A stretch of DNA of 64,000 nucleotides from contig CACIKF010000002.1 in NCBI GenBank assembly GCA_902587165.1, positions 1 to 64,000 on the forward strand, in the 5' to 3' direction. Made by a program: the position numbers and the translations under genes. This DNA comes from Puniceicoccaceae bacterium (GTDB lineage Bacteria > Verrucomicrobiota > Verrucomicrobiia > Opitutales > Coraliomargaritaceae). Under the pieces are notes generated by a model. It saw only the letters and a list, made by a program, of their open reading frames with translations. It searched no databases and was not told the origin of the DNA. The stretch's first letter is position 1, and each line of letters opens with the position of its first letter. This document shows, in pieces, positions 38,154 through 56,955 of the stretch.

Positions 38154-39215
38154 CTACGCTACGCTTGCAATTTGAGCATCGCTGTTACCTGCTAGGATCT
38201 TCCCATTCAAATAGACGTGCTGGGTCGCACTAAAACGACTCTCTAACAAATCATTTAGCCGTCTGGCAGCTTGGAAACCAATTTCACGATAGGGTATTTG
38301 AATAGTGGTCAAATCGAATTGGCTAGCTTTATTTGAAATACCATCGAAGCCCGTAATTGAATAATCTTTGCCAGCAATTAGCCCGTATTGATTAAATACA
38401 GACATAAAGTCATAGGCAATATGATCAGCTGGGCAGATCCATGCAGTCACTCCATTCTTGGTCTGCTGAATCGCCTTTTGGTAGCTTTCCTCCAATGTAT
38501 AAGTATCATCTTTATAAAGGTTTAAAACATCTTCTGGACGATATTGAAGTCCTGAGCGGGTAACTTTTTCAACAAAAGCACTAAAACGGCGATAGACCCA
38601 GAGCGGCTCGACTGAATAACGCCTAGAGAAAAAACCAATTCGGCGATGGCCCTCATCGATCAGTCTTTGTATCAGATGAGATACCCCTCGGTTATGATCC
38701 ACATCAATACAGTCCAAATCTTGGGCACCAAATTGTTCGACTAAAGACACACAAGGGAATTTGCGCATGAGCCCCTGAATGACCTCAGCTGGGAATGGAT
38801 AAACAAAAAGAACACCGTCCCAAAGCGATTTCTTATCCTTAAGAAGCTTTTTATAGGTACCCTTATCCAGATTATCTTCCCTTGGATCAATAATGTGTAT
38901 ATCGAGCTGCAACTTTTTCAGCTGGGCATATTCAGAAATCCCGGGCAGTAGCTGAAAACCAGGACTTTCATAATCGCTCCGATTATACTCCTCTACAGCG
39001 CTACAGATCAGGACTGCTATAGTTTTCCGGTTTGGTCTGCTACCTTGTTTACCGTTACTCCTCGGTTCTAAATAATTGTAGCCTAACTTTGATGCTAGAG
39101 AAAAGACCGCAGCTCGGGTGTCTGGATTGATCCCTGGGTGGTTTGTGAAGCACCGAGATACAGTGGTCCTAGAGATACCAAGTTTGTCTGCGATTAGTTG
39201 TTGATTCACTTCCAT
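38154..39215 (-). CDS. LacI family transcriptional regulator
   Basis: 353 residues. The N-terminal helix-turn-helix NQQLIADKLGISRTTVSRCF (residues 4-23) and the hinge region up to LGYNYLEPRSNG are typical, followed by a periplasmic-binding-protein-like effector domain (AVLICSAVEEY, SLVEQFGAQDLDCIDVDH, RIGFFSRR, ITGFDGIS). It presumably senses a sugar released from the polysaccharide and controls the surrounding genes. Its effector and operators cannot be deduced directly; the shared element at 44741 and 53006 is a candidate site. Confidence 0.93.
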   Translation of the reverse strand: MEVNQQLIADKLGISRTTVSRCFTNHPGINPDTRAAVFSLASKLGYNYLEPRSNGKQGSRPNRKTIAVLICSAVEEYNRSDYESPGFQLLPGISEYAQLKKLQLDIHIIDPREDNLDKGTYKKLLKDKKSLWDGVLFVYPFPAEVIQGLMRKFPCVSLVEQFGAQDLDCIDVDHNRGVSHLIQRLIDEGHRRIGFFSRRYSVEPLWVYRRFSAFVEKVTRSGLQYRPEDVLNLYKDDTYTLEESYQKAIQQTKNGVTAWICPADHIAYDFMSVFNQYGLIAGKDYSITGFDGISNKASQFDLTTIQIPYREIGFQAARRLNDLLESRFSATQHVYLNGKILAGNSDAQIASVA

Positions 39216-39707: not shown

Positions 39708-41183
39708 CTAGTTGCCATAGAGTTGCTGATGAGTAATACCTCCTCCAGGAATCTTCTCAGGTTTAACATATTCAATGCTTGTAAGATATGCATCAAGCTT
39801 TGCGTTTAACTCAACTAGCTTTGCCGCATATTCCGGATTTTGGGCATGATTATAGAGTTCCTTTGGATCGGCCGAGATGTGGTAGAGCTCGCTCTTGTAA
39901 TCACCGTCTGGATAACGGACTAATTTCCAATCTTCCGTGCGATATGCATGGAGGGTCGGAGTTCCAGGAAAACCTCCACGGGGACGATAGTCCGATTCTT
40001 TGTAATACTCATACAAGAAACCTTCGCGTCCTTCGCCATCTGGCTGAAGAAGCGGTACCCAACTCTCACCTTGCATGTGCTCCGGAATCGGTGCACCCAC
40101 AATATCGAGTAAACTAGGTGCGAGGTCTATGTTTAGAACTAATTCATCCACCTTTTGAGGATTCTTAAGGCCTGGTTTCCACATAATTAATGGAATGCGG
40201 ATGGATGGATCATACGCCTTGCGCTTATCATGTAAGCCACCGTGCTCACTCATAAAGTATCCATTATCACCTGCGAATATGATTATGGTGTTATCCAATT
40301 GTCCTTTTTCTTCAAGGGCTTTAACGATCAATCCCACCCCATCGTCGACTGCTGTGACCGTGCGCATTTTATCTGGTATGCGTGGATGTAAAGGGGCTTT
40401 GCCTCCGGTAATTCGCCTCCGCTTTAATGCTGACTCAGAAATGTAAACAGGCTTAGCCTCTAAATTATCGTCTAAGTCATCCTGTGACGGAATTTTGATG
40501 TTGCGATAAAGCTTACTATGCCGAGGCGCTGGTGTAAATGGTTGATGCAAGGCCTTATGGCTGAGATAAAGCATAAATGGCTGGTCACCACGCTCTTGAT
40601 TGATGAATTCCACCGCCATATCGTTCAACTCATCCGTCAAATATTTCCCTTTAGGGACTTCACGAGTTGCACCGTCGTGCATGAGAAATTTATCACCAAA
40701 ATACTTTCCTTGCCCCCAAAAACATGCCCAGTAGTCAAAACCAGGACGTGGGCGGTTGTGCATCGCTTGATGCCATTTTCCCATGAAGCCAGTGTTGTAA
40801 CCAGCCTCTTGCAATAACAGAGGGAATGTCGGCAGAGTCATATCGTAGTCAACATGCTCATTTACGATGACTCCGTGGGTAGTGGCATAGACACCTGTCA
40901 AAAAGGAGGCACGAGAAGGGCCACAAAGAGACGTCGTAGTGAAGGCATTCTCGAAGGTAACTCCATTATTAACCAAGAAATCTAAATTTGGCGTCTCGAG
41001 CCATGGGAAATTTCCAATGGCTGCAATTTCATCGTAGCGCTGATCATCTGTAAGAATGAAAACAATATTAGGCCTCTCATCTACAACTGTTCCATTGCCT
41101 TGCAAAGTAAATGACGATAACATCAGGACATATAGGGATAAAGTGGAGCCTGATAAGAAAAATACAGATTTTAGATTAGACAT
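39708..41183 (-). CDS. Sulfatase, formylglycine type, secreted
   Basis: 491 residues from the chosen start MSNLKSVFFLSGSTLSLYVL, a signal peptide. The metal-binding LTDDQRYDE, the formylglycine motif SLCGPSR (Cys87), GKWHQAMH and AGDNGYFMSEHGG are intact. The C-terminal part ends with LYHISADPKELYNHAQNPEY. It is similar in layout to the sulfatase at 36535. An earlier in-frame ATG at 41219 would overlap the divergent GH94-like gene. About 50 nt separate the two divergent genes, so their promoters overlap. Confidence 0.92.
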   Translation of the reverse strand: MSNLKSVFFLSGSTLSLYVLMLSSFTLQGNGTVVDERPNIVFILTDDQRYDEIAAIGNFPWLETPNLDFLVNNGVTFENAFTTTSLCGPSRASFLTGVYATTHGVIVNEHVDYDMTLPTFPLLLQEAGYNTGFMGKWHQAMHNRPRPGFDYWACFWGQGKYFGDKFLMHDGATREVPKGKYLTDELNDMAVEFINQERGDQPFMLYLSHKALHQPFTPAPRHSKLYRNIKIPSQDDLDDNLEAKPVYISESALKRRRITGGKAPLHPRIPDKMRTVTAVDDGVGLIVKALEEKGQLDNTIIIFAGDNGYFMSEHGGLHDKRKAYDPSIRIPLIMWKPGLKNPQKVDELVLNIDLAPSLLDIVGAPIPEHMQGESWVPLLQPDGEGREGFLYEYYKESDYRPRGGFPGTPTLHAYRTEDWKLVRYPDGDYKSELYHISADPKELYNHAQNPEYAAKLVELNAKLDAYLTSIEYVKPEKIPGGGITHQQLYGN

Positions 41184-41236
41184 AGATTTGGAACGTGTGC
41201 ATTGAAGTGCATAATTCAAGGGAAAATAAAATCAAG

Positions 41237-44200
41237 ATGCAAATTAAAGACAAAACTGCTACTGAATGCAAAGATTCTCAAAAGGATTCACCCCTTGTAA
41301 TTCAAGACTACGATGAAATGCCTCCGTTCTTTATGTCACTGATTAGTCGGGACAACTTGTGGGCTTTTATCTCCAGTCGCGGATCACTTACTGCCGGCAG
41401 AGAAAGTGAGGAAAAATCAATTTTTCCTTATGTTACGGTCGACAAAATCCATGACAGTTACGGAACAACAGGCCCACGCACAATGATTCGCCTACAAGAC
41501 AATAAACTATGGGAACCATTCACTCCACATACAGTTAAAGAGCCAGACATTGAGCGTAATTTATCGAAGGGAGTATTGGGCAACTCGATCTGCTTTGAAG
41601 AAATGCGAGTTCGGGACGGTTTATCTTTTAAATATCGCTGGCAACCCGCCGGGCGTTTTGGCTTAACCCGTACAGCCTGCATAGAAAACTGTAGTAATCA
41701 GACAGTCAAACTAGATGTTTTAGACGGCATAGCCAATATATTACCCCCTGGCCTAGATTCGCGCATGCAAGCGAACAGTAGTGTCTTGACCGACGCTTAC
41801 AAACAGAGCGAGTTGCAATCCAACTCTCGCATGGCGTTATATTCTACTGCATCAGGCATTACGGATCGTCCTGAGCCGATGGAAAATCTTCGTGCGAACT
41901 GCGTCTGGTCTTCTGGACTTGATGAAGCCGTAGTTACCCTGGCTACAAAATTACCTGATGCGATGATTCAAGCTAAAGCAATTGATCCGTGCGTTCTAAA
42001 CTGCGGGCAACGCGGTGCCTACTGGTTGCACGGTGAAGTCACCGTAGAGCCTGGTCAAAAAAAAGAATGGGTGATCGTGCTCGATACAGATTTAGATGCG
42101 GCAGGAATTGCTCAACGTATCAAAGAATTAGATACACAAGACGGGCTGAAACTCGTAAAGGATGCGATCGATAGCAATGCGGCAGAACTTGCTAGATTGT
42201 TAGCCAGTGCGGATGCATTTCAATCTGGTAACGACTCAATGTCGCAAATACACCACACCGCCAATGTTCTCTTTAACTCAATGCGTGGAGGAGTCTTCAT
42301 CAACGGGTATAATATCAAGGGAGAACACCTGCAGGCACACGTCAAGCAAGCTAACCATAGACTCTATGATTTACATGAGACTGCCCTCTCAAGCTTGAAT
42401 GGCTGGTTGAACTACAAGGAATGTCGTAGCCAAATTGAAGCGCTTAATGACCTAGATTTACTCCGGCTATTCTTAGAATACTTACCCCTCACCTTCAGTC
42501 GACGACATGGTGACCCTAGCCGACCATGGAACAAGTTTATCATAAAAACTCACGATTCAGACGGCAGTCCGTGCATGTCTTATCAAGGTAATTGGCGGGA
42601 TATTTTTCAAAATTGGGAATCTTTATGCCTAAGCTACCCACTCTTCCTAGAACACGTAGTCACAAAGTTCCTGAACACATCGACTATGGACGGCTACAAC
42701 CCGTATCGTATATTCGACAGCGGATTCGATTGGGAGGAAATCGACGAAGAAGATCCCTTTTCCGGCATTGGCTATTGGGGAGATCATCAAATCGTATACT
42801 TACTACGCTTGATCGAAGCATTGCATGCCCATCAACCTAAAGTATTGAACAGATGGCTAGATGAAAAGGCATTTGTTTTTGCTAATGTACCCTACCGAAT
42901 AAAGTCACTGGAAGCTATTTTCGATAATCCCAAATCAACTATCATTTTTGATTCCGACTTAAGTGCTAAACTCAGAGTACAAGCCAAAGACAAAGGCAGT
43001 GATAGTGCATTGCTGAGATCTACAGATGCATCAATTCATAAGGCCAACCTAACTGAAAAAATATTAATTCCATTACTTGTAAAATTGAGCAATTTCGTGC
43101 CAGGAGGTGGTGTTTGGATGAACACAGAACGACCTGAATGGAATGATGCAAATAATGCGCTTGTCGGGAATGGTTTGTCGATGGTGACGGCTGGTCACTT
43201 ATTGCGATACGTAAGATTTTGTCGTGATTGGTGGAGTCAGCTCGACCACGGCAAACAATTATCTTTAAGCGCTCCAGTCGCTGATTTTGTCGATTCTTTG
43301 CTAGCTATTTTTTCTAATAAGAATACTGATCCGCACGCCAGCACAGCAGATGGTATTCTGCGCGCTCAGGTGGTTCGTGAGTTAGGCCTCTCGGGGCAAT
43401 ATTATCGAGAGCATGTCTACGCTGGCAATTTCGAAACTCAACGAAAGTTAACATTAAAAACTGTGCTTCAACTACTAGAAAATGCTGACCATTGGCTACG
43501 AGCTAGCTTATTAACTGCCAAGCGTACAGACGGACTAATGAATAGCTATAACCTTCTTGATTATACCGCAGACCGCAGCTCGATGTCAGTCCTCGAACTC
43601 AATGAAATGCTCGAGGGACAGGTATCTGGGCTTAGCGCCGGTCACCTAAGCAGCGCCGAAGCAGTCGAGCTAGTCGATACAATGTTTGAAAGTCAGCTCT
43701 ATGTTGAAGATCGCAACAGCTTCTTGTTATACCCAGATCGCAAGTTACCAATGTTTATGGATAAGGGTCTAATTCGGGAGACTGATCTTCAATCCAGTAA
43801 ACTATTGCAACACATGATCAGCGTAGCTGACGCACGACTGGTAAGCAAAGACAGACAAGGTAAATTACGATTTGCATCTGAGTTAAATAACAAAGATGCA
43901 CTATTATTACTACTTAAGGAACTTTCCGCTGAAGTAAGGCTCAGGGATTTAGTAGAACAAGAATTCAGCTTAATCCTGAATATCTATGAAAATACATTTA
44001 ACCACCGAGCCTTCACTGGGCGCAGTGGTGGCATGTTTTCCTTCGAGGGCCTTGGTTGCATCTATTGGCACCAGGTTTCCAAGCTGCTGCTTGCGGTACA
44101 AGAATGTTTCTTCAATGAAGCAGAGAAAACGTCGCCGGACAATGAGCTACTCAATGCATTGGGTGTACGATACTACAAAATTCGAAAAGGCTTAGGATTT

Positions 44201-44680
44201 AACAAGACTGCTAAGGAATATGGCGCATTCCCCTCCGACCCCTATTCTCACACACCCGCGCACAGTGGTGCCCAGCAACCTGGAATGACTGGGCAAGTAA
44301 AAGAAGAAATAATAACGCGGTTTGGTGAGTTAGGTATTCGTATTAGCGGGGGCGCTCTCAACATTGATCCAAGACTGCTACAAACTTCTGAATTCACCCA
44401 CCAATTGCGCACCTTTGAAGCAAGGACTGTGGACGGTAAACATGAAAGCTTTGAGCTCAAAAGCGGCTCACTCGCTTTCACATACTGCCAGACGCCTTTC
44501 ATCTATAGCATAGGCACTGATGCGGCAAACATTCGTATAGAAATAGACTATCAGGGTGACAAAAAACAAGTATCAGAGGGCAGTCAATTACCAGCAGATG
44601 CCTACCAGGATGTAATTCGACGAACGGGGAACATTCGCAGCGTGAGGGTGATAATACCTGAACAAATACTCTTCCAGTAA
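41237..44680 (+). CDS. Large cytoplasmic GH94-like protein, putative phosphorylase or glycosidase
   Basis: 1147 residues, no signal peptide. I do not recognise a named family. The N-terminal 300 residues are beta-rich, with GRFGLTRTACIENCS like the beta-sandwich of GH94 enzymes. The middle (about 350-1000) is helical and reads as an (alpha/alpha)6 barrel, with NWRDIFQNWESLC, DPFSGIGYWGDHQIVYLL and RPEWNDANNALVGNG; the last recalls the GH94 segment carrying the catalytic Asp (WNDG). The C-terminus has SHTPAHSGAQQPG and GGALNIDPRLL, like the closing beta domain of GH94/GH65. GH149 and GH161 beta-1,3-glucan phosphorylases are similarly long. Together with GH16 laminarinase-like genes and a sugar symporter, an intracellular role in oligosaccharide breakdown is likely; the exact reaction is inference. 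An upstream ATG at 41195 would overlap the divergent sulfatase promoter. Confidence 0.5.
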   Translation: MQIKDKTATECKDSQKDSPLVIQDYDEMPPFFMSLISRDNLWAFISSRGSLTAGRESEEKSIFPYVTVDKIHDSYGTTGPRTMIRLQDNKLWEPFTPHTVKEPDIERNLSKGVLGNSICFEEMRVRDGLSFKYRWQPAGRFGLTRTACIENCSNQTVKLDVLDGIANILPPGLDSRMQANSSVLTDAYKQSELQSNSRMALYSTASGITDRPEPMENLRANCVWSSGLDEAVVTLATKLPDAMIQAKAIDPCVLNCGQRGAYWLHGEVTVEPGQKKEWVIVLDTDLDAAGIAQRIKELDTQDGLKLVKDAIDSNAAELARLLASADAFQSGNDSMSQIHHTANVLFNSMRGGVFINGYNIKGEHLQAHVKQANHRLYDLHETALSSLNGWLNYKECRSQIEALNDLDLLRLFLEYLPLTFSRRHGDPSRPWNKFIIKTHDSDGSPCMSYQGNWRDIFQNWESLCLSYPLFLEHVVTKFLNTSTMDGYNPYRIFDSGFDWEEIDEEDPFSGIGYWGDHQIVYLLRLIEALHAHQPKVLNRWLDEKAFVFANVPYRIKSLEAIFDNPKSTIIFDSDLSAKLRVQAKDKGSDSALLRSTDASIHKANLTEKILIPLLVKLSNFVPGGGVWMNTERPEWNDANNALVGNGLSMVTAGHLLRYVRFCRDWWSQLDHGKQLSLSAPVADFVDSLLAIFSNKNTDPHASTADGILRAQVVRELGLSGQYYREHVYAGNFETQRKLTLKTVLQLLENADHWLRASLLTAKRTDGLMNSYNLLDYTADRSSMSVLELNEMLEGQVSGLSAGHLSSAEAVELVDTMFESQLYVEDRNSFLLYPDRKLPMFMDKGLIRETDLQSSKLLQHMISVADARLVSKDRQGKLRFASELNNKDALLLLLKELSAEVRLRDLVEQEFSLILNIYENTFNHRAFTGRSGGMFSFEGLGCIYWHQVSKLLLAVQECFFNEAEKTSPDNELLNALGVRYYKIRKGLGFNKTAKEYGAFPSDPYSHTPAHSGAQQPGMTGQVKEEIITRFGELGIRISGGALNIDPRLLQTSEFTHQLRTFEARTVDGKHESFELKSGSLAFTYCQTPFIYSIGTDAANIRIEIDYQGDKKQVSEGSQLPADAYQDVIRRTGNIRSVRVIIPEQILFQ

Positions 44681-44794: not shown

Positions 44795-45688
44795 ATGAAC
44801 GTTCTTAGATTATCTAAAAATGCGAGGAGCATTTTACTAATAGTCCTATTTTCTGGATCAAGCGTGGTATGCGCTACGCCCAATGCTTCTCTCAACCCTG
44901 AGCGCTGGGTATTCTCTTGGTCGGATGAGTTCGACTACACAGGCAAACCGAATCCAGAGATTTGGGACTATGATTATGGCTACCTTGGCTTTAACGAAGA
45001 ACTGCAAAACTATACCGACCAGCCTGAGAATGTTCGTGTAGAAAATGGAGCCCTGGTTATTGAAGCTCGACTAGACGTAGTCAGTGCTAAGCGCTCTAAA
45101 GAAGTGGTGGAGGAATTAAAAGGCTCCAATGCAGATGTTTCAATACTTGGCAACAAAGAGTTCACTTCGGCAAGACTAGTCACACGGGGTAAGAAAGAAT
45201 TTTCTCATGCGCGGGTGGAAGCACGTGCACGCTTTACTCAAGGTCGTGGTTCTTGGCCAGCGATCTGGTTGCTTGGTGACCAGACCAAGAACCTGTGGCC
45301 TCTATGTGGTGAGATCGATATTATGGAACACGTCGGCTACGATCCAAACCACGTTCACTCGGCCGTCCACACTAAGCACTCAAATTTCATGAATCACATC
45401 AACGTTAAGGACAGCGTGATCCTGCCAGATGTCTGGGCTGAATTTCACACCTACGCAGTTGAATGGAGCGCAAGCGAGATCCGATTCTTCATTGACAACA
45501 TATGTTACCATGTGGTGCCGAAGGGCAAACGCACTGACGACGACTGGCCCTTCACTAAAGACGACCTCTATTACCTAATCCTTAACATTGCCGTAGGTGG
45601 AAGTTGGGGTGGTATCGAGGGCATCGACATGACTAGTTATCCGCAAAAAATGATAGTCGATTACGTGCGCGTTTTTGAGAGAAAATAA
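44795..45688 (+). CDS. GH16 endo-beta-glucanase, laminarinase-like, secreted
   Basis: 297 residues. Signal peptide (hydrophobic residues 11-27) then a single GH16 jelly-roll domain. The catalytic motif is GEIDIMEHVG with nucleophile Glu173, Asp175 and acid/base Glu178, the ExDxxE form with a beta bulge as in laminarinases and agarases. WPAIWLLG just before it and the disulfide-compatible WPLCGEID favour a laminarinase-type enzyme acting on beta-1,3-glucan, but specificity within GH16 cannot be fixed by eye. It follows the GH94-like gene by 114 nt and converges with a sulfatase. Confidence 0.9.
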   Translation: MNVLRLSKNARSILLIVLFSGSSVVCATPNASLNPERWVFSWSDEFDYTGKPNPEIWDYDYGYLGFNEELQNYTDQPENVRVENGALVIEARLDVVSAKRSKEVVEELKGSNADVSILGNKEFTSARLVTRGKKEFSHARVEARARFTQGRGSWPAIWLLGDQTKNLWPLCGEIDIMEHVGYDPNHVHSAVHTKHSNFMNHINVKDSVILPDVWAEFHTYAVEWSASEIRFFIDNICYHVVPKGKRTDDDWPFTKDDLYYLILNIAVGGSWGGIEGIDMTSYPQKMIVDYVRVFERK

Positions 45689-47346: not shown

Positions 47347-48498
47347 CTACTGCCGTCCGTATACTCGGATATACTCGACCTCCAAGCGCTCTGCAGTCAG
47401 CGTTGAATCTATCTCTCTGGCTCGTCCGCCGCCCATAGCCAAGTTCATTATTAGATTTTGAGGATCGTTAAATGGATATTCCAAGGCATTGGCAGTTTTG
47501 TCGTATGTGTAGACATGCTCACCGTTTAAAAAGATCAGTAGCGATTCTGGCGTCCATTCCAATGCATAAGTGTGGAACTTACCGGCCATTTGCTGGACAT
47601 GCTTTTTACTCGAGATGTGGTTGCCTTGTTTGAAGTAATAGGCGCGCGTGTGGCAAGAGAAATGGGTAAGGCCATCTCCAGTTTCATCATCTATTTCCCA
47701 GCCGTAATTTTCCAGAATATCCAACTCTCCGCAATAGGGCCAAGAAACTTCATCACGATAAGCATCCCCCAGCAACCATATGGCAGCCCAGCACCCGTCG
47801 CGTCCAGAAACCTTGGCACTGAACTCGATTTTTCCGTAGAGTAAGCTCATCCGTCCACGTGTGGTCAACCGAGCGGAGGTCCAGCCACCATCTTCGCGAT
47901 CCTTACGCGCTTCAATGATGAGCCGACCATTTTCACAGCGGGCATTTTCGAGACGATTTTCGGTATAGTAGTGGGACTCACGATTACCCCATCCCCAGTT
48001 ACCAATATCGTAAGCCCAAACCTTAGGGTCGGGCGCGCCATCCTCCTCAAATTCATCCGACCAAACGAGCGTCCATTCGTCACCCTCAAGGTTTTGTTTC
48101 AGGGTGTATGGAGTCAGTTCATGCTCCTTCAACAAGGTGAACCTGATCCACTCAATCGTAGCGGCACCATCGATATAATTGACCCTCATGTTATGCACGC
48201 CTGTGTTCAGCGGAGAACCATCTTTATGAACAACGATAAATTGGTCGGCCGAATTGACTGGCATTGCCGCAGTGATGTCGTAGGTGCGGCCATCCACATT
48301 GTGGATGTAGTCTTCGATAAATAAGGTCGCTTCACCCTTCGCCGACAGCTCGACGCGATAACGCCCAGCAATAGGTATCTCAACATCAAAAGTTGAATCT
48401 TTTATCTCAGACTTGTTGACTGTTACTTCCATGGACATAGCGGGTGACCCCATAAGTGTAATGAATCCTGCGACGAAAAATGATGATTTACTAAACAT
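47347..48498 (-). CDS. GH16 endo-glycanase with N-terminal carbohydrate-binding-like domain
   Basis: 383 residues. Signal peptide about 1-22; residues 24-123 form a beta-rich domain (YRVELSAKGEATLFIED, GVHNMRVNYIDGAATIEWI) like carbohydrate-binding modules of the CBM6/CBM35 fold; the GH16 domain follows from about 140. The catalytic motif is CGELDILENYG with Glu258, Asp260 and Glu263. WAAIWLLGD and WPYCGELD resemble the other GH16 enzyme of the locus, but the two are clearly different proteins, so they may cut different linkages or sulfation states. Gap to the sulfatase is 127 nt. Confidence 0.9.
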   Translation of the reverse strand: MFSKSSFFVAGFITLMGSPAMSMEVTVNKSEIKDSTFDVEIPIAGRYRVELSAKGEATLFIEDYIHNVDGRTYDITAAMPVNSADQFIVVHKDGSPLNTGVHNMRVNYIDGAATIEWIRFTLLKEHELTPYTLKQNLEGDEWTLVWSDEFEEDGAPDPKVWAYDIGNWGWGNRESHYYTENRLENARCENGRLIIEARKDREDGGWTSARLTTRGRMSLLYGKIEFSAKVSGRDGCWAAIWLLGDAYRDEVSWPYCGELDILENYGWEIDDETGDGLTHFSCHTRAYYFKQGNHISSKKHVQQMAGKFHTYALEWTPESLLIFLNGEHVYTYDKTANALEYPFNDPQNLIMNLAMGGGRAREIDSTLTAERLEVEYIRVYGRQ

Positions 48499-48595: not shown

Positions 48596-50041
48596 CTACG
48601 GGCTTGTAGGACCCGATTCTTCAGATTCCTCTGCCAGTGCCCTAGCCTCCGCCAACTCTGCTTGCATCTGTTTAATTGTCTTCTCGTCCAAGGCTAGAAA
48701 GAATAAGACAACTCCGTTGAGCAATGCGAGTATCCCAGGAATAATACTATACATTACACAAATGCCCATTAGTGCCCCGGGTGATTGTTCTTCATTGGGT
48801 TGGTAACCAAAGCCAGCAAGCATCCAACCTGAGGCAGCGCCACCAACGGTCAGCCCTAATTTTTGTGCGAACATGGCAGCAGACATCACCAATCCAGTCG
48901 CCCGTCGTCCGAACTTCCATTCTCCATAATCGGCCACGTCTGTGTAGAGCGCCCATACCAATGCGGGTGTGGGACCTGCTAGTAAGCTACCCAATAGGTT
49001 GACCGCGAACATCGTCCAGTAGGCGTGCGCTGGGATGAAGAAGAAGCCAATGACTGTCGCTGAATTTAGCAGGGTAAACAATATCAAGGCATTGCGTTTG
49101 CCCATAGCTCGACCGACCAAACCTGTGAGAGTCACTCCAGCGATAAACATGAGCGTCCCTGAAGATAAGAAAACTGTAAAGCGGTCAAACTCTAGGAAGA
49201 ACCACGAATCAGGATTACCAAGGGTGAACAATGGAAGAAATCCATCATCGACATAATACTTAAAAAAGTGTACGCCCACTGCGCCACGTACGGCGACATT
49301 CGACAAGGTGCATACCGCTGCGATTACCATGATCACCCATGGCCTGTTACGCATCAAAAAACGGATGTCATCACTTAGCTTGACGTGCTTCTTTGGCTGC
49401 GGCTTTACCCGTTCTTTAGTCGCAGCGTAAGTAATCAAAAACATTATGACTGATACGACCCCAAAGAGCGCCATAGTCGATTGAAAGCCTAACGCCTCAT
49501 CGTCTCCGCCAAACATCTTGACCAGCGGACGCACCAACAAGGAAACAACAAAGCCGCCACTGAATGCTCCCACAAAACGATAAGTGGACAGCGCCATTCG
49601 TTCCACTGCGTTCGGAGTGATGACACCCATCAATGCTGAGTATGGGACGTTAATCGCCGTATAAATCATCTTAAACCCAATAAAGGTAAGATAGGCATAA
49701 ATTAGTTTTCCTAAGTCCGCCAAATCTGGATTGGCAAATATCGCATAACCAAAGGCGCCATAGGGAATCGCAAACCAGAGTAAGAATGGACGGTATTTAC
49801 CTTTCTTGGTCTCCACCCTATCTGCGATCGCGCCCATAATGGGATCGTTCACAGCATCCCAAAAGTTAGCCAGCAAGTACATCGTACCGACCGCGCCAGC
49901 ACTTAAACCGAACACATCCGTATAATAATAAAACAGGAAAATATTAAAGAACTGAAAGTATAAATTAGACGCTGTGTCCCCAAGACCATAGCCTAATTTT
50001 TCAATTTGAGTTAGCGTTTCGCTATTTTTTTGTGTCTGCAC
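48596..50041 (-). CDS. GPH-family sugar:cation symporter (MFS)
   Basis: 481 residues with twelve predicted membrane helices. The N-terminal pattern EKLGYGLGDTASNLYFQF and DVFGLSAGAVGTMYLLANFW, then DAVNDPIMGAIADRVETKKG, is characteristic of the glycoside-pentoside-hexuronide:cation symporters. It would bring the di- or oligosaccharides of the pathway through the inner membrane. It lies between the TonB receptor (57 nt) and the GH16 gene (97 nt) on one strand. Confidence 0.93.
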   Translation of the reverse strand: MQTQKNSETLTQIEKLGYGLGDTASNLYFQFFNIFLFYYYTDVFGLSAGAVGTMYLLANFWDAVNDPIMGAIADRVETKKGKYRPFLLWFAIPYGAFGYAIFANPDLADLGKLIYAYLTFIGFKMIYTAINVPYSALMGVITPNAVERMALSTYRFVGAFSGGFVVSLLVRPLVKMFGGDDEALGFQSTMALFGVVSVIMFLITYAATKERVKPQPKKHVKLSDDIRFLMRNRPWVIMVIAAVCTLSNVAVRGAVGVHFFKYYVDDGFLPLFTLGNPDSWFFLEFDRFTVFLSSGTLMFIAGVTLTGLVGRAMGKRNALILFTLLNSATVIGFFFIPAHAYWTMFAVNLLGSLLAGPTPALVWALYTDVADYGEWKFGRRATGLVMSAAMFAQKLGLTVGGAASGWMLAGFGYQPNEEQSPGALMGICVMYSIIPGILALLNGVVLFFLALDEKTIKQMQAELAEARALAEESEESGPTSP

Positions 50042-50098: not shown

Positions 50099-52927
50099 CT
50101 AGAATTGTATCTTCCCAGAGAGGTGGTAGGAGCGCGATTCGCGGTAGAATCCGTAATTTTCGCGACCAGAAAAATCAGTATCATCAAACAAATTGTTCAC
50201 CCGAAATGCCACAGTCAGCCTAGGATCACTGCGCCTAGTACCGAGCTTTTTCTCCCAGGTAGCAAATGCGCTGGTAGTGTGCTCGTCGCCAAAGTTCAGA
50301 TAGACGCGGTCGGTGCGACCGCCAGCAACCGATTCTCCGACAGCATTACCATCTCCATCATAGTGTAGGTCGAAGCGGGTCTGGTTTGATGCAGAGCGAT
50401 AGCGCTGAGATGCGCCTATCGCAAGCCCCTTTAGAAGGCCGTCCCTAAATTTATAACGCCCGGTAAAGGTCGCACGGTGATCGGGGCGGCCAAAAAGCTC
50501 GAAGTTCTCAGGGTTAGATACTAAAGGATGCAACTCCAAAATTTCATTGGTTAATGTAAAATTGTAGGAGCCTAGAAAGCTCAACCCGGGTAGCGGATTG
50601 TAAGTAAAGTCCAATTCTACACCTTCGGAGCGAGTCCTGTCTCCAACACCGCGTCTTCCAGCAAGATTCGCGGCATTCATATATCCATCGTTGTTTGCAC
50701 CGAAGTAATTTTCAGGAAACTCACCACCGTAAATCGATCCTGGATATATTTGATTGAGTAATGCGGTAGAATAGGCGAACTCGTTATCATTCTCCTTAGT
50801 TATGGAGTAGTAAGCAAATTGACCATCGAGCTTACCGCCGAACAAGTCGAAGCGCAGTCCAAACTCAATACCTTCGCCCAATTCTGGCGGTGCTATCTCT
50901 CCGATAGGCGTTCGTTCGGTGCCGGAGGGTGGTTCGATGGATTGTGCGTAGTTGGCAAAAATACCGATCTCGTCGTTTATCCAGAATAGCCCCCCGATAG
51001 TGGGATTGAACTGGTCGTAACTAACCGATGCATTGTTGTTCCGCCCATCGTCAGAACCTGGATCAAAACCGTCTATGGAGACCTTACGCAATGTGGACTT
51101 AATCTGGATGGAGTCATAACGAAGACCAATCAATGTATGAAGACGTCCGTTAAAGAACTCGCTTTGCTCGGCAAACCACTGGCTATTGGAATTAATCTTG
51201 GAAAAGGTGGTTTTGCTTAAGGCCCATTCCGCCAAGCCGCCATTGTTCAAGTTTCCAAGGACGGGATTACCATTATAAGGATCTACATAACCTACTAGAT
51301 CAGTCTCAATGATTTCATTGAATTGTAGAATGGAGCGATCAGCAGTAAAGGGTTGCGATAGCGAAATGTATTCAAAGGCTCTCTGGGCGTCTGTCACTTT
51401 ATTATTGCTAACGCGCCAGTCCTGTAGAAAAGCGCCAGGAGGTAGTGGATTACCGCCATATACAGCACCCACCGCACCCACAGGCACTTGGTCCCAGACC
51501 CGCTCTTTCTTGGTCTGCGAGTTGTAATCCCAACCGACGATGATGCGATTCTTGGCCTTGAACCAGTCGTTTTCAAATACCAAAGCGGTGCGTATACCAT
51601 TGCGATCGGTACTGATGTCGTTCTTCGTCCAATAAGTACGAATAAATTGTTCACCCACTTCGACGTTCTCGAGAGGGGTAGGCCTAAAGATTCTGGTGTC
51701 GTAGCTGTCTCGCACCCTTACCCCGCCTTCCATGTCACGCCCCAGGCTTTTCGCACTCAGCTCTTCGACATTCATCGACAGGTTAAAGTGCAATTTATCG
51801 TTAATTTCATGTTCGAAGTCAGCCATGGCAAACGTGCCGTCGCGGTCGTTGAATTTATCTGGTCCACTCACGGCTCCATAATTCGCGCTATTGATCAAGG
51901 CATAGTGATTGCGTAGATCCTCGCGGTTAGTTATGGGAGAAACGTTGTTCTGAGAATGGTCGATTATCCAATCCAAAGCTTGCTGCGACAAGTGCTCAAC
52001 CCAATCGGGGGAGAAGGGCACTTCGTAATTAGTTATGCTGCTGCTGTAGTCGGCTTGGCTTAATATTCCTTGATAGCCGTTTAATTGGTCGTTGTCATCG
52101 TCGATTTCGGTTTTGTCGCGCATAGCGCGGTTAGGAAAGCGGTTGGTCGCGCTCACACCCTCTAAGTGCAGGCGCAATTGCGTTTTGGGCGTCAGCTTCA
52201 TGGTAGTAGCTACTGTCACTGCATCCAGTTCGTTACTCTTCAGTGGATGATCATAACCATGCTCGCTGTGTACACCCATAACGCGTATCGCGAAATTGTC
52301 GTTGATGATCTGGTTAGCGTTAAAGGTAGTGCGCTGGAAGTCTTTGATGCCTACAGCCGCGTATATGGCCTTGGTATTTTCCCTAAAATTTGCTAACATA
52401 GGCGAGTTGCTTACTGAACCACCAGGTGAAGCTTGGCCGAAAATTAGGCTATTGGCACCTTTGATAATGTCCACCCGGGCAATGTTATAACTGTCCGTTG
52501 GAAGATTACGCTTAAAGAAGTTAAAACGTGGAAACGTATTGCGGAAGCCGCGAATCCGGATCCGGTCTAGCGAGTATCCACTGGGGTCCTCGTCAATGGC
52601 AGCACTCACCATCGCTAGATCTTGAGTACTGAGAATATTTAAATCATCCAACAACTGTTCGTTGACGATAGACATGGAGATCGGCGAATTTTTAACCAAT
52701 GTATTAGTTCGCGTAACTGAGGTGCTGTTAGCTGAGTAATAGCCTTCATCTTGATCATTGGAGACAACAAACTCGGGCAATACGTAGAGTTCTTCTTCAA
52801 CATCCCCTTGGTTAGCGCTGCGAATCGTACTCACAAGAGGCAGATCCGCATCAGGGGCTGTTTGACCGATTAAGCCTAGGGGAATAGCTAGCAATATTGC
52901 TAGCATGGGACGCAGCAGATACCTCAT
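50099..52927 (-). CDS. TonB-dependent outer-membrane receptor
   Basis: 942 residues. Signal peptide in the first 22 residues; a plug domain from about 55-200 (ISMSIVNEQLLDDLNI, LDRIRIRGFRN, VDIIKGANSLIFGQASPGGS); then a long beta barrel ending with the aromatic terminus YHLSGKIQF. A TonB-box-like segment (EEELYVLPEFVVS) lies between signal and plug. It has no SusC-type N-terminal carboxypeptidase-like domain and there is no SusD partner, so uptake differs from the Bacteroidetes scheme. Its place with GH16, sulfatase and symporter genes suggests a glycan substrate, though plug features resemble siderophore receptors. Confidence 0.92.
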   Translation of the reverse strand: MRYLLRPMLAILLAIPLGLIGQTAPDADLPLVSTIRSANQGDVEEELYVLPEFVVSNDQDEGYYSANSTSVTRTNTLVKNSPISMSIVNEQLLDDLNILSTQDLAMVSAAIDEDPSGYSLDRIRIRGFRNTFPRFNFFKRNLPTDSYNIARVDIIKGANSLIFGQASPGGSVSNSPMLANFRENTKAIYAAVGIKDFQRTTFNANQIINDNFAIRVMGVHSEHGYDHPLKSNELDAVTVATTMKLTPKTQLRLHLEGVSATNRFPNRAMRDKTEIDDDNDQLNGYQGILSQADYSSSITNYEVPFSPDWVEHLSQQALDWIIDHSQNNVSPITNREDLRNHYALINSANYGAVSGPDKFNDRDGTFAMADFEHEINDKLHFNLSMNVEELSAKSLGRDMEGGVRVRDSYDTRIFRPTPLENVEVGEQFIRTYWTKNDISTDRNGIRTALVFENDWFKAKNRIIVGWDYNSQTKKERVWDQVPVGAVGAVYGGNPLPPGAFLQDWRVSNNKVTDAQRAFEYISLSQPFTADRSILQFNEIIETDLVGYVDPYNGNPVLGNLNNGGLAEWALSKTTFSKINSNSQWFAEQSEFFNGRLHTLIGLRYDSIQIKSTLRKVSIDGFDPGSDDGRNNNASVSYDQFNPTIGGLFWINDEIGIFANYAQSIEPPSGTERTPIGEIAPPELGEGIEFGLRFDLFGGKLDGQFAYYSITKENDNEFAYSTALLNQIYPGSIYGGEFPENYFGANNDGYMNAANLAGRRGVGDRTRSEGVELDFTYNPLPGLSFLGSYNFTLTNEILELHPLVSNPENFELFGRPDHRATFTGRYKFRDGLLKGLAIGASQRYRSASNQTRFDLHYDGDGNAVGESVAGGRTDRVYLNFGDEHTTSAFATWEKKLGTRRSDPRLTVAFRVNNLFDDTDFSGRENYGFYRESRSYHLSGKIQF

Positions 52928-53110: not shown

Positions 53111-53980
53111 ATGAAAACTCCGATTACGATTTTTTTCACGATCATGCTAATATTTTTGCCTAAAGCGGCTTGCGCCGATATCTATGAAGGCTTCGATATG
53201 GCCGACCTAAACTCGGCTGCGCTCGCAAGTGATGATGCTACTCGTGCTGGTAATACAAGTAGTGGATGGAACAGCACTTGGCAGGTAACTGTTGGCAAGC
53301 ATTTTGTAGAGGCTGTCGATTTAGAAATCAAAGGATTTGATTCCGTTGAAGGCTCATTGGAAGTCAGGGGTGAGCGTAAACCAAATTCTATTGGTCAAGG
53401 CGTCGCCATGCGTCAGATCACTGAAAGCTTCATTGGTGATGTTTACGGTAGCTTTCGCTTCAATGCAAGAGCCCTCAGAATTGAATCTGCCCTAGGTTTA
53501 TTACTTTCAGTGCCAGGTCAAAACCCATTAAACCTAACCACAGCTACTTTTACTTTTTGCCCAAAGCGTTGGGGCTCAGAATATGGCATGATGGCAGCCG
53601 GTAAAGAACGTGTCACAAAAAGCGAGGCAGGCGAGGCCTGCATCCCAAACGTAAACTACTTAGTGGTTTGGCAACTCGAAAACCTACCAAAATTAGGTAA
53701 CAGGCAATCGATTATTTTAAATATGTGGGTGCTAGATGAAAACCAAGCATCTCATTTTGCTAGCAAAGAATCTTTTGAATCCGCATTGCGTTTAGCTGAA
53801 CTAGGCAGTGAGCCGGAACAAGTTGGCCAATATCTTCGCAGGGAAATAAAAAATTCAAAGCGTGGTTTGTTTGGCGGCATGGTCGCGTCGTGCTTTTCTG
53901 TTGGAATGCCTAAAGTCAACTTTGATGAAATCCGAATCTCGCGAAAAAGCCTTGCTGATGCTGTCGGACTAAGCCGCTAA
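53111..53980 (+). CDS. Secreted protein of unknown function, jelly-roll-like
   Basis: 289 residues. Signal peptide MKTPITIFFTIMLIFLPKAA, then DIYEGFDMADLNSAALASDD, an opening often seen in secreted beta-sandwich proteins of Verrucomicrobiota that carry PEP-CTERM tails; this one has no such tail. The central part alternates hydrophobic and polar residues in strands (SLEVRGERK, GSFRFNARAL), consistent with a concanavalin-like fold, possibly glycan-binding. No family is assigned. It lies between the TonB receptor (divergent) and the Ton operon (same strand, gap 149 nt). Confidence 0.65.
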   Translation: MKTPITIFFTIMLIFLPKAACADIYEGFDMADLNSAALASDDATRAGNTSSGWNSTWQVTVGKHFVEAVDLEIKGFDSVEGSLEVRGERKPNSIGQGVAMRQITESFIGDVYGSFRFNARALRIESALGLLLSVPGQNPLNLTTATFTFCPKRWGSEYGMMAAGKERVTKSEAGEACIPNVNYLVVWQLENLPKLGNRQSIILNMWVLDENQASHFASKESFESALRLAELGSEPEQVGQYLRREIKNSKRGLFGGMVASCFSVGMPKVNFDEIRISRKSLADAVGLSR

Positions 53981-54129
53981 TATTATTACGAATAGCTTGG
54001 GTAGCTAGAACAGCTTGCAGATTAGGTGAGCTTTCGCATCTGTAATCGAGCAATTTTCGGACAGCATGCTTTACTAATGGACAGTTGCTTTGGTTTTTAC
54101 ATTTTACCCCAATGATCACTTATTCTACT

Positions 54130-54894
54130 ATGAAAAGAATTCTGCTTCAAACATCCCTAGTTCTGCTGTGTGGCCTGATCGCAAATGGATCCGCTGAGGA
54201 AATTGCCATCACGCAAAAGAAAATAGATAAATGGATCGAAACGCGCCAAATCATCTCAGAAGAGCGTGCCAGCTGGTTGGGAGAAAGGGCCATGTTGGAA
54301 ACTTCTGAAGTCATACTAAGCAATGAACTGTCCGCATTGAAGCGTGCCGTTGAATTACTCTCTGAGTCTAGCACAATGGCAGATGTCGAACGTGAAAATT
54401 TGCAAGCGGAACGAGAAGAGATTGAGCATTCCAACGAGATGTTGGCAGTCAAAGTGCGCACCCTAGAAGTAGCTGTTCAAGGGCTATCAGCCCGCTTCCC
54501 CTCTCCCTTACTAGTCAAAATCACGCCCTTACTTCAAAACATCCCAGAAGATGTCTCCAGGACAAATAAAACACTGGGCCAACGCTTACTGACAGTGCTT
54601 GGCGTGCTTTCTCAGGCAGACAAGTTTAACGGAACACTCACTCTGCAAACCAACGCACGCGATGTCTCTGGCACTGGAGTCCAAGAGCGAGTCACCACCC
54701 TTTACTGGGGATTAGCCTTTGCGGTCTATGTGGACGACGCTGGCAAGTTTGCCGGTGTGGGATTACCTGGGCCAGAGGGCTGGGAATGGTCTACGCGCAA
54801 CGAGTCTGCATCTGATGTTCGTCGCTTTATCGCAAGCTACTCAGGCGAGACTGACCAGTTAGACTTCGTTAATATTCCTGTAGAGATCCGTTAA
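54130..54894 (+). CDS. DUF3450 family periplasmic coiled-coil protein
   Basis: 254 residues. Signal peptide MKRILLQTSLVLLCGLIANG, then a coiled coil (about 30-125; heptads in ASWLGERAMLETSEVILSNE and ENLQAEREEIEHSNEML), then a small globular domain (TLYWGLAFAVYVDDAGKFAG, ending DFVNIPVEIR). This is the DUF3450 layout, which is typically the first gene of TtpC-ExbB-ExbD-TonB operons. Upstream in-frame ATGs exist at 54085 and 54112 but the signal peptide starts at 54130. The next gene begins 19 nt later. Confidence 0.85.
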   Translation: MKRILLQTSLVLLCGLIANGSAEEIAITQKKIDKWIETRQIISEERASWLGERAMLETSEVILSNELSALKRAVELLSESSTMADVERENLQAEREEIEHSNEMLAVKVRTLEVAVQGLSARFPSPLLVKITPLLQNIPEDVSRTNKTLGQRLLTVLGVLSQADKFNGTLTLQTNARDVSGTGVQERVTTLYWGLAFAVYVDDAGKFAGVGLPGPEGWEWSTRNESASDVRRFIASYSGETDQLDFVNIPVEIR

Positions 54895-54913
54895 CCTCAA
54901 AGTGATCTGAACC

Positions 54914-56326
54914 ATGCAATCTTATAAAAAAATTAAAACTGGCAGTATCATCTTGGCCAGTATCTTGGTCGCTTATTGCGCACAAGCCCAAGCATTCAAC
55001 CAAGCTCAGACTCGGGCTGATACCGATTTACGGGAAGCAATTGAAACGCTAAGCCAAGTGCGTCAACAGATCGAAGAGGAAAAGCTGCCTTTATCCACAA
55101 AAATTGCCACCTTAGAGGCTGAGGTCATTGAGGTGCGAAGAGAACGAGATCGTTTACTTACGCAACGTGACAGCCGCACGCTCAACTTAGACAATCTGCG
55201 CGGTCGCGTGAGCAGCTTGAGAGACCAACAAAACTTCATCGTCAACCGCTTAAATGAATTTATCGGAGAATTTGAAGCACGCATTGATCTAAGCGAAATA
55301 CCATTTTATATGGAGCAGCTTGAACAAGCTAAGCTGGTGCAAGACGATGTAGATGTCAGTCAGCAGCAAAAGCGCTTGAAGCAAATCGAACTGGTCGAAG
55401 CGGCGATTAAACGAATCGATGCTGCCCTAGGAGGGCAAAGGTATGAGGGTAAAGCAATGACGCCCTCAGGTAAACTGGAAGCGGGAACCTTCCTATCCCT
55501 TGGACCACAAGTTTATTTTGCTTCACAGTTAAGCGAATCCGCCGGTATCGTGGAAAGAGAAGCCAATAATCCGGATGCAGTTGTGGCATCGGGCTTTACT
55601 CAGAAACAAACCGAAGCGATACAAGCAGTCGCTCAAAACGGCACTGGCCACTTACCATTAGATCCCACACTAGGGAAGGCCTTGAAAAAGGCCAAAGTCC
55701 GCAAATCTCTTGTCGGACACATACAAGACGGTGGTGTGGTTGGTTACTGCATCATTGCACTCGGCGGACTTTCGTTATTGCTAGCATTGTTCAAAATCCG
55801 AGAAGTCGCATCCTTCCAAACCGCCAAACCCGCGGTCGTGGATGAAGTCTTAAATGCTTTAATTGTAGGTGATGAAGCGAAGGCACTCACAACGGCCAAA
55901 TCGGTGCCTGGCGTCTGTTCGCAAATGCTACTGGTAGGGATTGAACGGGTAAATGAGCGACGTGAGATCATCGAAGAGCTTTTATTTCAAAAGATCCTAG
56001 AGGTGCGTCCAAATTTAGAGCGCTTCCTAGCTTTCCTCGCATTATCTGCTGCCGCCGCACCATTAATGGGCCTATTGGGAACAGTGATAGGCATGATTAA
56101 AACCTTTCAACTGATTACTATCTACGGCACTGGTGACCCCAAAGGCTTAGCTTCAGGAATTTCTGAAGCTTTGGTGACAACAGAGTTTGGTCTGATTGTC
56201 GCAATCCCCATACTCGTGGTGCACGGACTCCTCTCACGCATGGCTCGCCAAAAAATTGGACAGCTCGAGCAAGTCGCTATCTCATTCGTCAACGGCATAC
56301 ACGGTATTCAGAATAAAGACTCTTAG
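54914..56326 (+). CDS. TtpC-like protein: periplasmic coiled coil fused to MotA/TolQ/ExbB
   Basis: 470 residues. A signal peptide (about 11-27) is followed by a long coiled coil (about 35-165: VRQQIEEEKLPLSTKIATLE, EVRRERDRLLTQRD), a linker, and an ExbB-like domain from about 275 to the end with three membrane helices and the core FLAFLALSAAAAPLMGLLGT and EALVTTEFGLIVAIPILV. This matches the TtpC protein of Vibrio-type TonB2 systems, which couples the stator to periplasmic components. It is followed after 14 nt by a separate short ExbB. Confidence 0.9.
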   Translation: MQSYKKIKTGSIILASILVAYCAQAQAFNQAQTRADTDLREAIETLSQVRQQIEEEKLPLSTKIATLEAEVIEVRRERDRLLTQRDSRTLNLDNLRGRVSSLRDQQNFIVNRLNEFIGEFEARIDLSEIPFYMEQLEQAKLVQDDVDVSQQQKRLKQIELVEAAIKRIDAALGGQRYEGKAMTPSGKLEAGTFLSLGPQVYFASQLSESAGIVEREANNPDAVVASGFTQKQTEAIQAVAQNGTGHLPLDPTLGKALKKAKVRKSLVGHIQDGGVVGYCIIALGGLSLLLALFKIREVASFQTAKPAVVDEVLNALIVGDEAKALTTAKSVPGVCSQMLLVGIERVNERREIIEELLFQKILEVRPNLERFLAFLALSAAAAPLMGLLGTVIGMIKTFQLITIYGTGDPKGLASGISEALVTTEFGLIVAIPILVVHGLLSRMARQKIGQLEQVAISFVNGIHGIQNKDS

Positions 56327-56340
56327 GCAAGTAGCGTGCA

Positions 56341-56955
56341 ATGGAAGTCTCTCTACAAAAAATCTTTGAAATATGGCTGAGTGGCGGCTGGGTCATGATA
56401 CCCTTGTTTCTGCTATCGTTTTTGCTCTACACGCAGGCCTTTCGATTGGCGCTTTCCATAATGCACACGAAACTGCCTAGTGACGAAGAATTTGCCTGGC
56501 GCGAGTGGGTAATAACACCAGAAAAGGCTAAGGGGAAAATCAAGGAAATCATTTGCTACACTCAGTTGAACACTCGGTCGATTGAATACGTGCGTAAGCG
56601 ATTCGATGAAATCCGTATCAACCAATTGGCAATTATTGAACAACAGTTAAAATTTGTAAAATGTCTAGTTGCAGCAGCTCCTTTGCTCGGACTACTCGGA
56701 ACCGTACTCGGAATGCTACAAACCTTTTTCGGCATTGCTACCAGCGGCGGCGTTGAAACGGCGGCCGTAGTCGCCTCAGGAATCTCTGAAGCGCTGGTGA
56801 CTACAGAGACTGGATTGGCCATCGCATTACCTGCTTTGTTTATGGTGATGTTTATTCAACGTCAAACTCACCAAGAAGAGGCCAAGCTCGCACGACTCGA
56901 AAGTCTCACACTAACTTGCCTAAATCTGGGGGCGAAGAATTCGACCCCCACTTAG
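56341..56955 (+). CDS. exbB: ExbB/TolQ proton channel protein
   Basis: 204 residues, three membrane helices (about 13-33, 104-126, 145-170). The core VKCLVAAAPLLGLLGTVLGM and SEALVTTETGLAIALPALF is intact. It shares a transcript with the TtpC-like gene before it and the two ExbD genes after it (4 nt gap). The system thus has two ExbB-type subunits, one short and one fused. Confidence 0.93.
   Translation: MEVSLQKIFEIWLSGGWVMIPLFLLSFLLYTQAFRLALSIMHTKLPSDEEFAWREWVITPEKAKGKIKEIICYTQLNTRSIEYVRKRFDEIRINQLAIIEQQLKFVKCLVAAAPLLGLLGTVLGMLQTFFGIATSGGVETAAVVASGISEALVTTETGLAIALPALFMVMFIQRQTHQEEAKLARLESLTLTCLNLGAKNSTPT

Follow-up and report, generated by a model that had tools for sequence, protein, structure and literature searches.

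A predicted GH149 β-1,3-glucan phosphorylase in a laminarin-type locus of a verrucomicrobial genome

Introduction

Pro_7066, a crystallized and biochemically characterized β-1,3-glucan phosphorylase of family GH149 (PDB 6HQ6, 6HQ8), has an active site made up of the Trp651-Asn652-Asp653 loop, in which Asp653 is catalytic, together with Arg470-Asp471, Glu951, and His959 (PMC6771811). GH149 genes are known from clusters with GH16/GH17 genes and transporters (PMC5827456) and, in bloom bacteria, from loci for laminarin use (PMC10108472). For BACL24 (Ca. Fucivorax) and related Verrucomicrobiota, one study reported that its genomes lacked laminarin loci (PMC8857213). Here, we describe the family, fold, active-site residues, and gene context of a 1147-residue protein encoded in the window, a stretch of 64,000 nucleotides from a Puniceicoccaceae bacterium.

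Results

Judged by its sequence and its predicted structure, the protein is an ordinary member of GH149 and not the representative of a new family. The NCBIfam model NF058639 ("1,3-beta-D-glucan phosphorylase, GH149 family"), an equivalog model with a curated cut-off of 1150 bits, matches residues 12–1140 with 1372.1 bits over profile positions 10–1133 of 1134. The best sequence match in the PDB is Pro_7066 (6HQ6/6HQ8; for 6hq6_A, E 1.1e-281 and 940 bits over residues 22–1142), with ∼41% identity over 1120 residues. Identity to GH149 sequences outside its own clade is only 40–45%, and the protein sits on a long branch.

The initial annotation had described a 1147-residue protein beside a GH16 gene, and both the open reading frame and the motifs that it quoted are confirmed (YWGDHQ at residue 513, EWNDANN at 634, NIDPRLL at 1042); the GH149 gene lies directly upstream of the first GH16 gene. 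The frame opens with an ATG at 41237 and stops at 44680 on the forward strand. An in-frame GTG at 41195, 42 bases upstream, is a possible start, but the ATG is preferred because alignments with close relatives begin at residue 1 of the ATG-initiated protein. By eye, no hydrophobic stretch is apparent at the N-terminus (MQIKDKTATECKDSQKDSPL...), in agreement with the annotated lack of a signal peptide.

Relatives of the protein are encoded in 24 of the 91 related genomes around the window's own. Across the genome collection, 589 confirmed stretches encode relatives, an occurrence far beyond chance, and the best 80 of these 589 come from Bacteroidota, Gammaproteobacteria, Verrucomicrobiota, and other groups. 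One copy, in a BACL24 assembly (G011; L002:10001-13443; L109), is broken into three frames and would contain 77 stops if read in one. Decay of this copy was considered. Neighboring genes of the same contig are likewise split by frame shifts, however, and the shifts in the GH149 gene and several neighbors are therefore probably sequencing indels.

The coordinates of the locus and of the predicted active-site residues are given in Table 1. For both GH16 enzymes the best solved relative is the laminarinase 3iln, and a genome-wide search found these two GH16 enzymes only, both in this locus (the genome is 79% complete). No GH3 enzyme was found in the same 79% complete genome, which encodes two PGM-domain proteins. 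Four sulfatases are among the neighbors of the GH149 gene; for the one divergent from it, the open reading frame end is as listed, and the true start is probably nearer 41183. The gene content agrees with the published GH149 clusters and with the laminarin loci of bloom bacteria, and two GH16 enzymes, a GPH symporter, and a TonB-dependent receptor fit the use of laminari-oligosaccharides. The annotated link between the phosphorylase and import of such oligosaccharides by the GPH symporter is likewise in keeping with what the locus contains.

Table 1. Features of the locus and predicted active-site residues of the GH149 protein
Feature	Coordinates	Strand	Evidence
LacI-family regulator, candidate regulator of the locus	38154..39215	-	PF13377 8.9e-19; PF00356 just under cut-off
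S1-type sulfatase with an intact CGPSR motif, divergent from GH149	39708..41219	-	PF00884 6.5e-60; syntenic in relatives
GH149 β-1,3-glucan phosphorylase gene (predicted), 1147 aa	41237..44680	+	NF058639 profile match, 6hq6_A sequence match, fold match
R454-D455, predicted sugar 1-phosphate recognition (Pro_7066 R470-D471)	42596..42601	+	6HQ6 alignment, PMC6771811, invariance
W635-N636-D637 catalytic loop; D637, predicted catalytic Asp (Pro_7066 D653)	43139..43147	+	6HQ6 alignment, PMC6771811, invariance
E937, predicted donor-site contact (Pro_7066 E951)	44045..44047	+	Alignment, PMC6771811, invariance
H945, predicted phosphate recognition (Pro_7066 H959)	44069..44071	+	Alignment, PMC6771811, invariance
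GH16, laminarinase-like endo-β-1,3-glucanase, probably secreted (motif GEIDIMEHVG)	44795..45688	+	PF00722 4.9e-23; 3iln laminarinase E 1.4e-64
Second GH16 laminarinase-like enzyme	47347..48498	-	PF00722 1.7e-17; 3iln E 1.1e-51
GPH-type sugar:cation symporter	48596..50041	-	PF13347 3.9e-91; TIGR00792 370.6 bits, cut-off 231.35
TonB-dependent receptor	50099..52927	-	PF00593 and PF07715; conserved beside GPH in clade members

Two further observations concern the region adjoining the TonB-dependent receptor. A 289-residue protein with an apparent signal peptide (53111-53980, +) is conserved in this position in relatives and has no match in Pfam or the PDB. It is followed at 54085-56955 (+) by a gene for a DUF3450 protein and then one for a MotA/TolQ/ExbB-type proton channel, a pair that looks like an energizing system for TonB transport.

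A structure model of the GH149 protein, derived from 39 aligned homologues, has a mean pLDDT of 87.5 and a pTM of 0.89, with pLDDT under 50 in the catalytic loop (residues 635–638). The model superposes on 6HQ6 with a TM score of 0.94 and an rmsd of 2.3 Å, whereas GH161 reaches a TM score of 0.66 and GH94 laminaribiose phosphorylase one of 0.60. With VIA-align, the match to 6HQ6 has a Z score of 48.1 (1117 residues, 2.1 Å), compared with 36.1 for GH161 and 28.1 for GH94 laminaribiose phosphorylase; these fold searches bear on the families that they matched and were not taken as evidence against others. The domain order and fold are those of Pro_7066, including the insert regions of Dom 1 and Dom 2 as judged within the whole model, and in sequence these regions align to 6HQ6 without a large gap. 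The model predicts the β-sandwich N-terminus and (α/α)6 core that had been proposed from the sequence, together with a closing β domain. Profile search and structure prediction, the checks put forward by the initial annotation, returned the anticipated (α/α)6 barrel with the WNDA aspartate in the active site but placed it within the known family GH149.

All seven residues named in the active site of Pro_7066 have identical counterparts (Arg454, Asp455, Trp635, Asn636, Asp637, Glu937, and His945), each invariant in 39 of 39 homologues. The suggestion that the aspartate of the WNDA segment is catalytic thus holds at the level of the alignment, in which Asp637 corresponds to Asp653. Most of the surface site at which Pro_7066 binds laminarihexaose is absent; of its eight residues, only Glu824 (Glu838 in Pro_7066) and Tyr980 (Tyr993) are kept, and the replacements include Y841 to N827, E990 to V977, E994 to K981, and R1062 to Q1049. 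Because conservation of this site falls off in GH149 members that share less identity with Pro_7066 (PMC6771811), we do not regard it as family-defining.

Discussion

The gene very probably encodes a cytoplasmic GH149 β-1,3-glucan phosphorylase acting on laminari-oligosaccharides, with substrate, reaction, specificity, localization, and pathway inferred by analogy with characterized members of the family. Secreted GH16 enzymes of the locus would cut laminarin into oligosaccharides, and these would be taken up through the TonB-dependent receptor and the GPH symporter. In the cytoplasm, inorganic phosphate would attack at the non-reducing end of the chain, giving α-glucose 1-phosphate and a chain one glucose shorter. 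Asp637 would serve as the general acid, the donor sugar and phosphate would be held by Arg454/Asp455, Glu937, and His945, and the reaction, as expected for clan GH-Q, would invert the configuration. The glucose 1-phosphate could then enter glycolysis via phosphoglucomutase. A cytoplasmic role on β-1,3-glucan had been anticipated from a comparison with GH149 and GH161, and the GH149 match upholds it. The points against so plain a reading are the long branch, the clade-specific substitutions, the largely missing surface site, the low pLDDT of the catalytic loop, and the neighboring sulfatases, which would be superfluous for plain laminarin.

It is possible, if unlikely, that the enzyme has kept the GH149 fold and phosphorylase chemistry while its acceptor preference has moved within the clade, for example toward short, branched, mixed-linkage, or desulfated glucans, in line with its constant sulfatase neighbor. 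In the tree, the protein falls in a clade of six sampled sequences whose stem is long (1.37 changes per column, support 100/100), and at 18 positions the clade departs from a residue that is nearly invariant outside it. Some of these substitutions lie near active-site residues in the sequence, such as W508F, Q631E immediately ahead of the catalytic loop, and M946Q adjoining His945. The donor-site residues, however, are all unchanged, and the GH16 partners resemble ordinary laminarinases. The divergent S1 sulfatase is kept in every clade relative in which that flank is covered, down to 56% GH149 identity, but such a neighbor is less telling in a genome with a very high density of sulfatases (62 sulfatase-domain matches in 1.85 Mb).

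Plain laminarin is without sulfate. A stronger form of the sulfatase argument, which we consider distinctly improbable, would make the phosphorylase and the S1 sulfatase a conserved functional pair on a sulfated or sulfate-bearing β-1,3-glucan, with the acceptor site of the phosphorylase adapted to the product. The divergent arrangement recurs in each of the seven clade relatives whose GH149 frame is full-length (L001, L082-L084, L086, L087, and L089) and also beside the partial GH149 of L085 and the frame-shifted one of L002, and the clade sulfatases are 67–91% identical to that of the window. Downstream of GH149, GH16 is found wherever that flank is covered, with the GPH symporter and TonB-dependent receptor beyond it in longer stretches. 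At the other GH149 loci compared, the search (E 1e-15) detected no such sulfatase next to the phosphorylase gene. Because the linkage may reflect common descent, and because sulfatase domains are so numerous in the genome, we treat the pairing as a lead and not as a finding.

That the protein founds a new phosphorylase or glycosidase family of clan GH-Q, distinct from GH94, GH149, and GH161, is very hard to sustain. The initial annotation had left the protein as possibly such a family, and a Pfam search with it found no matching model, only one sub-threshold, unrelated match; taken alone, this result would mislead, and it was the NCBIfam library that decided the family. The protein shares only about 41% identity with the solved GH149 enzyme, but EgP1 and Pro_7066 are themselves 45% identical (PMC5827456), so a value of this order is normal within GH149. 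The protein passes the NF058639 cut-off, and its best full-length match in both sequence and fold is GH149; unless CAZy were to divide GH149, these results refute a separate family. Assignment to GH161 or GH94, despite the shared clan fold and motifs, is ruled out by the gap in scores, as the GH161 chains match only in pieces (E about 1e-9, 39 bits, against 1e-281 for GH149) and have lower fold scores, as does GH94, no GH94 chain found by fold matched in the PDB sequence search, and neither Pfam nor NCBIfam gave a match to a GH94 profile. The entry 9h8v, named a cellobiose phosphorylase, is nearly identical to a GH161 chain and gives an equally weak sequence match.

The enzyme itself adds little, as GH149 is an already described family with a solved structure and is common among marine bacteria. 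Its small added value is ecological, namely a compact laminarin-type locus (GH149 and GH16) linked to sulfatases in a marine verrucomicrobial lineage. Whereas the BACL24 study cited above reported no such loci (PMC8857213), a GH149/GH16 locus of laminarin type is present in the window genome and in several relatives, including one under the name BACL24.

Among known enzymes, the GH94 laminaribiose phosphorylase PsLBP (6GGY, 6GH3) has the clan fold and donor-site chemistry in common with the window protein but is about 900 residues long, is disaccharide specific, and has 14% structural identity to it. The GH161 β-1,3-glucan phosphorylases (9GY9, 9QQK) have in common the clan GH-Q fold, the catalytic aspartate, and a β-1,3-glucan substrate but are shorter, with about 17% structural identity. 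EgP1 of Euglena gracilis, the eukaryotic founding member of GH149 (PMC5827456), is likened to the protein by family membership, and Pro_7066 has the same length, domain order, fold, and named active-site residues.
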